A stretch of 64,000 nucleotides of DNA from assembly GCF_030863805.1 (NCBI RefSeq), contig NZ_CP132957.1, positions 186,001 through 250,000 of the forward strand, given 5' to 3'. Both the position numbers and the translations under genes were made by a program. Below, in pieces: positions 45,695-47,668 of this stretch. Under the pieces are notes generated by a model. That model was not told where the DNA came from. It was given only the letters and a program-made list of their open reading frames with translations, and made no database searches. This stretch comes from Kineothrix sp. MB12-C1. GTDB lineage: Bacteria > Bacillota > Clostridia > Lachnospirales > Lachnospiraceae. Positions within the stretch are counted from its first letter, which is position 1; every line of letters begins with the position of its first letter.

Positions 45695-46219
45695 TTATTG
45701 TTTTCTGTATTGCAGGCGGATTTTATCTGCAATTAATGCTATAAATTCGGAATTGGTCGGTTTCCCTTTTCCTGTATTAATCGTATATCCGAACAAAGCA
45801 TCCAGTGTTTCCATCCTCCCTCTGCTCCAAGCTACTTCGATCGCATGCCGAATAGCACGTTCCACACGGCTTGAAGTCGTCTGATATTTTTTTGCGATGG
45901 AAGGATAGAGTACCTTGGTAATGGAGTTTAACATTTCCGTATCCTCTACCGACATCATAATAGCTTCCCGAAGATACTGATACCCTTTAATATGAGCGGG
46001 AACACCTATCTCATGTATCATATCCGTCACATCCTTCTCAAGGTCTCTTTCCATCGTTATCCTCTTCACAACTGCATCCTGCCCAGTTTCTGATGAATTC
46101 TTATGACTGGATGGCACCGTTATCATAATTTGAAATTCTTTATCCATGTTCATCAGATCGCCAAGTATTTTATATACCCTTTCGTTATCCTTTGTAGCTG
46201 TTAGATTCAGTTGCTCCAT
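45695..46219 (-). CDS. spo0A: receiver-less Spo0A (sporulation regulator with intact DNA-binding domain)
   Basis: A 174-residue protein against about 265 for normal Spo0A. ATG at 46219 is preceded by GGAGG. Residues 59-174 are a complete Spo0A effector domain ([62 protein letters not shown]). Residues 1-35 ([20 protein letters not shown]) align with the first strand and helix of the receiver in the same numbering, but Asp10 is Lys, and the segment carrying Asp56, Thr84 and Lys106 equivalents is gone. Only 153 bases separate it from spoIVB, too short to hide a receiver. It lies in the conserved recN-spoIVB-spo0A order. Confidence 0.9.
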
Positions 46220-46372
46220 ATCAAACCTCCGACTTTTTTCTTTGCTGATATCTGAAAATCCAAAACAAATGCTAATTATTTCCAAATATTGCTAGTGTCT
46301 ATTATAAAGGAACACTATTTGATGATTCAACCGTAAAGCATCGCATGAAAAAGGCAAAAGTTTCCATTATTT

Positions 46373-47650
46373 TCAATGAAGCAACATACTCTCTATAAAT
46401 ATGCCGTATCCACTCGTCGCATCCTGTACCAAAACATGGGTAACGGCCCCGATTATTTTACCATTTTGTACAATCGGAGATCCGCTCATTCCCTGTATAA
46501 TCCCTCCTGTCAGGGCTAAAAGATTCTTATCCGTAATACGGAGCAATATCCCTCTATTAATATTATCGTTATTTAAATGCACCTCTAAAATTTCGACATC
46601 ATAATACTTCGGACTTCCCTCTATACTGCAAATAATTTGGGCCGGCCCCTTTTCAATTTCCTGCTTCAGCCCTATGGGTAATTCTTCAAAAGGAATTTTT
46701 GCCCTTACTTGTTCCCCACAGTAGCCAAAAATACCCTCCGATGTATTTTCATTGATCTCACCGATAATATTCGCATCATCATATTCGATATAGCCCGTAA
46801 GCTCTCCGGGTGAACCATTACTCCCCCTGGTAATACCAACAATTTCAGTCTGATAAAGAGTCCCCTTTTCCAACGCCATCAATGTACTCGTATCCACATC
46901 GTTAATTCCGTGTCCCAAAGCACCAAAGCCTGAGCTTCCATTGATGTAGGTCATCGTTCCTACTCCCTGCGCGTTATCCCGAATCCATATGCCAATCTTA
47001 TAATCTCCGGCCTGATTTACTTCGGGCTTCACCTTACATGTCAGTTGTTCTTCTCCCCTTCTCACCGTAAGCACCAGTTCTTGTCCTTCACAATGCTTCA
47101 CCGTTTCCACGAAGGCTGCTTTGCCCACAATTTTCTCATCGTTGACATGGGTAATGTAATCGCCCGACTGCAAAATATATTCGGACGGAGAACAACGCTG
47201 TCCGTCCTCCCCGGTAAATTCTCCCACCCCTATAACAAGGACGCCTTGCGTCTTTACATAGATTCCAATGGGGATTCCCGCCGGCGTCAGCGTCTTATTC
47301 TGTATCACCTGAACACCTACCGTTTTTAACGGAATAAAGCCAAACAATTTCAAATCTAATACATACTCATTGATTTCATTGGCTTTAATCGTTACCGGCC
47401 TGGCCAGATCGATATGGATACTGTCTTTGGGAATATTAGATGCAGCAAGCCCGCTTACTTGTATAGCCTCCCGATACAAGTCTCCTGAAGCCGGAAGCTG
47501 CAGATTCAAAGTCTGATCCACGCCTGCCTTTATTTTGATATTGGAAGGCACCATCTTCCATAGAGCAAAATAGCAAGTACTGACAAGCGCAGTTACACCA
47601 CAGCACAGTATAATATAGAGGAATATTTTATATTTTTTTACATTTTCCAA
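46373..47650 (-). CDS. spoIVB: SpoIVB peptidase
   Basis: A 425-residue serine peptidase that signals from the forespore to activate sigma-K processing. It has an N-terminal membrane segment (about 8-30), a PDZ domain (about 120-210) and the S55 catalytic region with His in FGALGHGINDVDT and the nucleophile Ser in IQGMSGSPIVQNGKIIGAVTH. TTG at 47650 is favoured (AAGGA at 9 bases); a GTG at 47668 overlaps that ribosome site. The gene is intact although the neighbouring Spo0A is truncated. Confidence 0.92.
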   Translation of the reverse strand: MENVKKYKIFLYIILCCGVTALVSTCYFALWKMVPSNIKIKAGVDQTLNLQLPASGDLYREAIQVSGLAASNIPKDSIHIDLARPVTIKANEINEYVLDLKLFGFIPLKTVGVQVIQNKTLTPAGIPIGIYVKTQGVLVIGVGEFTGEDGQRCSPSEYILQSGDYITHVNDEKIVGKAAFVETVKHCEGQELVLTVRRGEEQLTCKVKPEVNQAGDYKIGIWIRDNAQGVGTMTYINGSSGFGALGHGINDVDTSTLMALEKGTLYQTEIVGITRGSNGSPGELTGYIEYDDANIIGEINENTSEGIFGYCGEQVRAKIPFEELPIGLKQEIEKGPAQIICSIEGSPKYYDVEILEVHLNNDNINRGILLRITDKNLLALTGGIIQGMSGSPIVQNGKIIGAVTHVLVQDATSGYGIFIESMLLH

Positions 47651-47668
47651 GCTATCACATCCTTTCAC

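Follow-up and report, generated by a model that had tools for sequence, protein, structure and literature searches.

A naturally shortened Spo0A that lacks most of its receiver domain in a lineage of Lachnospiraceae

The presence of Spo0A serves as an indicator that a bacterium can form spores, and the protein is regarded as a switch driven by kinases. One of the described forms closest to the protein reported here is encoded by sad67, a laboratory allele of B. subtilis that we take to be a receiver deletion. The product of this allele is constitutively active, induces early sporulation genes, and as an altered Spo0A is expected to be active without phosphate (PMC4689505). The isolated DNA-binding domain has also been characterized, in the structures 1fc3 and 1lq1 and in the C. 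difficile Spo0A-DBD construct, which binds its targets without phosphorylation (PMC3485338). Aspartate-less receivers provide another example of response regulators for which the usual route of phosphorylation is not available (PMC4395418). Regarding Spo0A itself, Davidson et al. (PMC6136694) present it as a receiver plus a DNA-binding domain, and the string "Lachnospir" is absent from the available text; Browne et al. (PMC8340488) scored spo0A as present by tblastn, and neither "receiver" nor "truncat" occurs in the available text of their paper. Among the matches listed in a search of the open-access literature, represented by titles and the beginnings of abstracts, no description of a natural receiver-less Spo0A was found.

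The gene described in this work is located in a window of 64,000 nucleotides, the whole stretch of DNA that was analysed (positions 186,001 to 250,000 of contig NZ_CP132957.1, Kineothrix sp. MB12-C1); unless otherwise stated, coordinates refer to this window. Its product resembles the canonical Spo0A (TIGR02875; B. subtilis, C. difficile) in the DNA-binding domain and the recognition helix, and the layout of the spoIIGA and spoIIE promoters is also alike; the spoIVB neighbour is a likeness that applies to this genome only. In contrast to the canonical protein, the short form lacks the phospho-acceptor Asp, the switch Thr, and the conserved Lys, position 10 is substituted in every short protein compared, and its own promoter mostly lacks an exact 0A box. 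It differs from sad67 in being natural, in occurring in 28 sampled genera, and in having a conserved remnant of the receiver together with a changed promoter. Residues 57–172 correspond to the same domain as the isolated DNA-binding domain; however, the latter comes from laboratory constructs, whereas the short Spo0A is the sole form at its locus and still carries the 37-residue remnant at its N terminus. Aspartate-less receivers, unlike this protein, retain the receiver domain, most of which has been lost here.

The short spo0A gene (45695..46219, minus strand), identified as an open reading frame with Pfam and NCBIfam matches, starts at the ATG at 46219, which is preceded by a GGAGG site, and encodes 174 residues followed by a stop codon (45695–45697). 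The adjacent spoIVB gene (46373..47668, minus strand) is intact, and its product matches the SpoIVB peptidase model TIGR02860 with 364.7 bits (cut-off 305.25). A 174-residue Spo0A beside spoIVB had been predicted originally, and this was borne out; the accompanying statement that other sporulation genes beside spo0A are also intact holds for spoIVB, but those scanned farther along, recN, argR, the NAD kinase gene, tlyA, and dxs, are non-sporulation genes. As was also predicted, the DNA-binding effector domain with its recognition helix (residues 57–174; 45698..46051, minus strand) is complete: the Pfam model Spo0A_C (PF08769) is covered from 1 to 104 of its 104 positions (159.3 bits), and residues 57–172 match the Spo0A effector structures 1fc3 (E = 2.3e-51) and 1lq1. 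No receiver match was detected in the Pfam scan up to an E value of 1, and the NCBIfam Spo0A model, whose cut-off of 200 the protein passes by scoring 204.3 bits, was matched only at positions 138–259 of 262, with positions 1–137 unmatched.

The N-terminal residues 1–37 (46109..46219, minus strand) align in register with receivers, with a mean BLOSUM62 score of 54.5 against 62 full-length receivers, compared with a mean of −21.6 and a maximum of 15.8 for 2000 shuffles of the sequence. The receiver remnant anticipated in the original prediction, given there as 35 residues, was therefore recovered, and so was the change of Asp10 to Lys; D11 and N12 are retained. In the 55 short proteins compared, position 10 is always K, R, Q, G, or N, and D11 is retained in 54 of them. 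The remnant is followed by a fast-evolving linker (residues 38–56; 46052..46108, minus strand), delimited by dN/dS and pLDDT, in which approximately 93 receiver codons are missing, as calculated from median lengths of 266 residues for 67 full-length proteins and 173 residues for the 55 short ones. An in-frame internal deletion of about 90 codons, eliminating the Asp, Thr, and Lys residues, had been proposed, in good agreement with this value. For the selection, alignment, and promoter comparisons, 55 of 59 short rows were kept as the type-I set (L101, L102b, L103, and L126 were omitted); the full-length set omits L097, L097b, L102, and L102b in the promoter counts, and additionally L099 and L108–L110 in the comparison of lengths and receivers.

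Selection on the short protein was evaluated at two depths. Within the genus (n = 16), the dN/dS ratio was 0.020 for the remnant and 0.36 for the linker, and the pN/pS ratio was 0.042 for the remnant and 0.040 for the C-terminal domain, in which synonymous sites are saturated. Over the 55 short proteins, in which synonymous sites are likewise saturated, pN was 0.182, 0.638, and 0.077 for the remnant, the linker, and the C-terminal domain, respectively, so that at this depth the remnant varies more than the DNA-binding domain. Four residues of the remnant, F29, I31, I33, and V35, are invariant in all 55 proteins, an alternation that would correspond to one face of a beta strand. From these selection figures and invariant residues, we concluded that the remnant is not decaying, and neither relaxed selection nor a broken frame, the features expected of a pseudogene, was found in the gene, whose frame is open and whose remnant shows the low dN/dS of 0.02 in the genus. 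We infer that the remnant has a binding role, perhaps in self-association. The AlphaFold (AF2) monomer model shows a mostly confident DNA-binding domain, pLDDT values below 50 for residues 38–55 of the linker, and a helix of moderate confidence at residues 12–24 of the remnant, with no strand; as a model of the monomer, it speaks neither for nor against a dimer formed through the remnant.

The genome of Kineothrix sp. MB12-C1 consists of one complete contig of 3,935,490 bp. A full-length spo0A elsewhere in the genome would be at odds with the original prediction; however, no full-length Spo0A is encoded on the complete chromosome, which carries two Spo0A_C genes, both receiver-less: the short spo0A and a 138-residue paralogue consisting only of the DNA-binding domain. 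This paralogue (positions 1432–1845 of locus L002; approximately 2,611,030–2,611,443 of the genome) is present in 14 of the 16 genomes of the genus, with a glycosyltransferase gene downstream in 11 of these 14 loci and the upstream partner in 9. Among sister species, the short spo0A is fixed (16/16 genus genomes), and an assembly deletion is excluded for the chromosome, given that the same form recurs in separate assemblies across 28 genera. The loss had been described for this organism; it is indeed present there, but it is far wider, since at least 28 of the 334 sampled genera of Lachnospiraceae, and at least 33 of the 397 sampled genomes, carry the short form. These numbers come from a search with a profile built from 37 short proteins, counting matches that begin at position 1 and taking the genera from the rows of the result. 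The short-form records L031–L053 are labelled as Lachnospiraceae, Clostridiales, "bacterium", or Acetatifactor. Among the matches listed, the best Spo0A match begins past model position 100 in all 43 short-frame genomes, and 37 of these 43 pass the NCBIfam cut-off. In at least five carriers (G008, G011, G236, G399, and G102), the short gene is accompanied by a full-length but more distant Spo0A-like gene, scoring approximately 92–105 bits.

The position of spo0A beside spoIVB is true for this genome and is not general among relatives. A motif search found spoIVB linked to spo0A in 64 loci and unlinked in 121, counts in which loci are redundant, some lie at contig ends, and some spoIVB genes were missed by the motif; of 12 unlinked loci that were inspected, 11 had other genes upstream, including the full-length L055 and L061. 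Two further loci showed unusual features. The short spo0A of G052 (L275), one of the 33 family genomes counted above, has a TAG codon within the DNA-binding domain, reflecting either decay or a sequencing error, and a D in the recognition helix where its relatives have an A. L102, from a roe deer rumen MAG, contains a tandem pair of Spo0A genes whose receivers are unusual, and in one of them the phospho-Asp motif reads N.

To infer the origin of the short form, SpoIVA was chosen for the tree because spoIVB is often not upstream of spo0A and is sometimes missed by the motif; for the same reason, a concatenated SpoIVB and Spo0A-C tree was dropped. In the SpoIVA tree, whose alignment contains no Spo0A column, a single branch separated the 36 type-I carriers included (out of 42) and G288 from 17 full-length genomes, with an ultrafast bootstrap of 100, an SH-aLRT of 99, and recovery in 100% of 200 bootstrap trees; a quick SpoIVA tree was also run for this split. 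The result is consistent with a single ancestral loss, bearing in mind that the 17 full-length controls are a non-random sample, chosen by frame length among the high-scoring matches listed. The Spo0A-C tree grouped the short forms in one clade (support of 99) that also contained four full-length intruders, L081 and L108–L110, the last three on a branch of 1.08; we read these as long-branch placements, although this tree falls short of proving that reading. Receivers collapsed in a different manner were observed in G288 (L126) and in a Roseburia MAG (L101), for which reason receiver loss may have occurred more than once. G288 matches the profile from position 1 with a lower score than the other carriers, and its placement varies, being within the short clade in the SpoIVA tree versus beside the full-length L115 in the Spo0A-C tree.

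The sporulation gene set was examined in 43 short-frame genomes (42 type I and G288), 17 full-length controls, and 6 genomes without Spo0A. SpoIIAA and the alpha/beta SASP were present in all 43 short-frame genomes and in all 17 controls (SpoIIAA weakly in G273), SpoIVA in 42 (not in G223) and 17, SpoIIGA in 41 (not in G014 or G316, and partial in G289 and G145) and 17, and SpoIIE at E < 1e-45 in 39 (not in G004, G006, G008, or G236) and 16, respectively; none of the five markers was present in any of the 6 Spo0A-less genomes. By these markers, the carriers look like spore-formers and unlike the relatives that lost the programme. A Spo0E-like phosphatase (PF09388) was found in only one of the 66 genomes, a full-length control, and is therefore uninformative as an indicator of lost control by phosphate. 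Several other features of the set were observed. A second, divergent SASP-like match to PF00269 (positions 13–50 or 6–45) occurs in 13 of the 17 controls and in 0 of the 43 short-frame genomes, and is a possible clade marker. The short SpoIIE frames have 401–450 residues (spoIIE loci L230–L247), and a hydropathy scan revealed no membrane-like segment in the 12 short-set loci or in the 4 readable loci of the 6 full-length ones; from these sequences, SpoIIE seems to have lost its membrane anchor in part of the Lachnospiraceae. A second stretch resembling spoIVA, degraded and interrupted by numerous stops (locus L362; 5607–7068 of the genome), was listed for Kineothrix sp. MB12-C1 alone among the 66 genomes searched.

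In B. subtilis, sigma-A promoters that are activated by Spo0A are characterised by a long spacer, and we looked for the layout TTGACA-N20–22-TATAAT, with at most one mismatch overall, within approximately 250 nt upstream of three target genes. This layout was found at spoIIGA in 21 of 25 short loci (0.15 expected) and 3 of 5 full-length loci (0.07 expected), and at spoIIE in 11 of 12 short-set loci, G288 included (0.03 expected), and 1 of 6 full-length loci (0.05 expected). The spacer was 21 bp in every first match listed, with spacers of 16–18 in none, and Kineothrix sp. MB12-C1 shows the layout at both genes. An exact 0A box precedes spoIIGA in 8 of 25 short loci (0.7 expected) and 4 of 5 full-length loci (0.2 expected), and a box that is exact or has one mismatch in 23 of the 25 short loci (13.0 expected); the spoIIGA start codons were assigned by a script and some lie too far downstream, and L183 yielded no frame. 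Upstream of spoIIE no exact box was present in the 12 short-set or the 6 full-length loci; a box with one mismatch was found in 11 of the 12 (5.8 expected) and 3 of the 6 (2.7 expected). At spoIIAA, the 22 short and 9 full-length loci contained no exact box, and the layout was present in 1 and 0 of them, respectively. PMC3416734 lists spoIIGA and spoIIE under sigma-A together with Spo0A, and spoIIAA under sigma-H together with Spo0A; that the layout is almost missing at spoIIAA would be expected if this gene is driven by sigma-H.

The promoter of spo0A itself (46301..46344, minus strand) consists of a GCGATG box that begins 14 nt before the −35 sequence (TTGAAT), an 18-nt spacer, and a −10 sequence (TATAAT), and is followed by a 5′ leader with the ribosome-binding site (46220..46300, minus strand) that is largely conserved in the alignment of 16 genus members. 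The whole of 46220–46344 is much alike in these genomes, although some upstream genes differ; insertions or changes of the leader near the start codon were observed in L003–L005, L007, and L011. Promoters were counted in the 54 short and 71 full-length genes that remained after omitting sequences with less than 120 nt upstream. An exact 0A box within 200 nt of the start was found in 44 of the 71 full-length genes (2.2 expected) and in 4 of the 54 short ones (1.2 expected), with 0 of 16 in the genus, including Kineothrix sp. MB12-C1, and 4 of 38 in other carriers; 27 of the 71 full-length genes also have no exact box. Given that the short carriers form one clade, this contrast represents one event inherited many times and not 54 events. 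On the other hand, the sequence GCGRTR within 26 nt before the −35 was present in 15 of the 16 genus members, in 27 of the 36 other carriers (of 38) with a sigma-A-like promoter, leaving 9 of these 36 without it, and in 7 of the 53 full-length genes (of 71) with such a promoter. The distance from its first nucleotide to the −35 is 14 nt in all the listed cases except L143 (15). Several full-length genes carry both boxes, with the 0A box first, and for this reason the second site represented by GCGRTR may be an ancient one. The complete pattern matched the genome of Kineothrix sp. MB12-C1 once, at spo0A, and a reversed-pattern control gave no match; a regulon sharing this layout was considered and rejected, as this genome gives spo0A alone and some genus members 1–2 further matches. 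According to PMC12090719, 0A boxes mediate the autoregulation of spo0A in B. subtilis, and their effects in that model are mainly repressive; the control lost in the carriers may therefore have been of either sense. The original prediction had the loss of the receiver right; the conservation of the remnant and the change in the spo0A promoter were missing from it.

Several alternative explanations were weighed against the idea of a working short Spo0A. An artefact of assembly or annotation, or a full-length copy elsewhere, is hardly credible: no point in support of it was found, and the genome is a complete single contig with no full-length copy, while the same form appears in separate assemblies of 28 genera. 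That spo0A is decaying in a lineage that is losing sporulation, the short form being an early step, seems very unlikely to us. We know of no sporulation phenotype for any carrier of the short Spo0A, G052 has a stop codon, and SpoIIE at a strong E value is missing in 4 of 43 carriers; moreover, a predictor study called all of its 24 Lachnospirales MAGs, the Acetatifactor one included, non-sporulating (PMC12536801). Against this stand the low genus ratios of the remnant (dN/dS 0.020) and the DNA-binding domain (pN/pS 0.040), the presence of SASP and SpoIIAA in every carrier, compared with 0 of 6 Spo0A-less relatives for all five markers, and the span of the short form over at least 28 genera.

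It could also be considered that the short protein has another job, for example in stationary-phase metabolism or surface polysaccharide, and that a different regulator starts sporulation. The DNA-binding-only paralogue in L002 adjoins genes resembling mannose-1-phosphate guanylyltransferase and glycosyltransferase genes, indicating that this genome uses Spo0A domains without a receiver in another setting as well. Nevertheless, the 21-bp spacer is kept at the spoIIGA and spoIIE promoters, and the frequency of 0A boxes upstream of spoIIGA, either exact or allowing one mismatch, exceeds the expectation in the short loci. Another job, which the original prediction had left as an option, thus fits poorly with the retention of the sporulation genes and of the promoter layout, and we consider it unlikely. 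Finally, a separate receiver or kinase might act in trans by binding the remnant, as in a split response regulator. The conservation of the remnant in all 55 proteins, with its invariant alternating residues, and the presence of stand-alone receivers in the genome are in line with this idea; however, the two best-scoring stand-alone receivers listed resemble CheY by eye, their best listed alignments with Spo0A receivers show 31–41% identity, and none of the 7 scanned neighbours in the window is a receiver, making this arrangement improbable.

Considering the deletion and its fixation, the selection on the protein, the retention of the gene set, and the promoter differences, we propose that the short Spo0A is probably a working, phosphorylation-independent regulator that is now controlled through its synthesis and perhaps also through the remnant. 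According to this proposal, an in-frame deletion in an ancestor would have removed most of the receiver, including the phospho-accepting Asp, the switch Thr, and the Lys, and as a result the DNA-binding domain would be freed from receiver inhibition and always competent to act, without phosphorylation, on its old targets. The main ones would be the spoIIGA and spoIIE promoters, with their 21-bp spacer and a box overlapping the −35. Binding without phosphate by the isolated domain of C. difficile (PMC3485338) and the activity of the altered Bacillus protein (PMC4689505) fit, by analogy, with a short protein that works in this way. Because a kinase could no longer switch the short Spo0A, the decision to sporulate would shift to the level of its production, with a partner perhaps also involved. 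The disappearance of the 0A box from the spo0A promoter in nearly all carriers would cut self-control, the GCGRTR box is retained at a fixed place before the −35 in most of them, and the 37-residue remnant would persist as a short helix plus strand. In growing B. subtilis, inducing constitutively active Spo0A did not bring about efficient sporulation unless a second condition was in place (PMC4689505), from which it follows that a second control, acting as a further gate, should exist in the carriers. A more specific version is put forward only tentatively: that this lineage turned Spo0A from a two-component into a one-component regulator, with the remnant as a new helix–strand module for input or dimerisation (F29, I31, I33, V35), and that commitment is set by spo0A transcription through GCGRTR and not by kinases. 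As for the upstream pathway of other clostridia, PMC3485338 cites orphan kinases acting on Spo0A and PMC6136694 argues that phosphorelays occur in many Clostridia; whether the term phosphorelay suits the Lachnospiraceae carriers is uncertain.

The carriers thus probably decide sporulation by a different control. A survey that relied on names described Lachnospiraceae of the human gut whose sporulation sets were almost complete, and reported that some of them had "lost" spo0A (PMC11170972); the short form is a possible explanation of such losses. Conversely, pipelines that record only the presence of spo0A would score the short gene as normal, as the 37 of 43 genomes passing the NCBIfam cut-off among the matches listed illustrate. 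If our proposal is true, a large gut lineage, the relatives of Acetatifactor, starts sporulation without phosphorylation of Spo0A, and the signal input lies elsewhere. These bacteria would then represent a natural experiment on which further gates control sporulation after Spo0A activation, a question of long standing.
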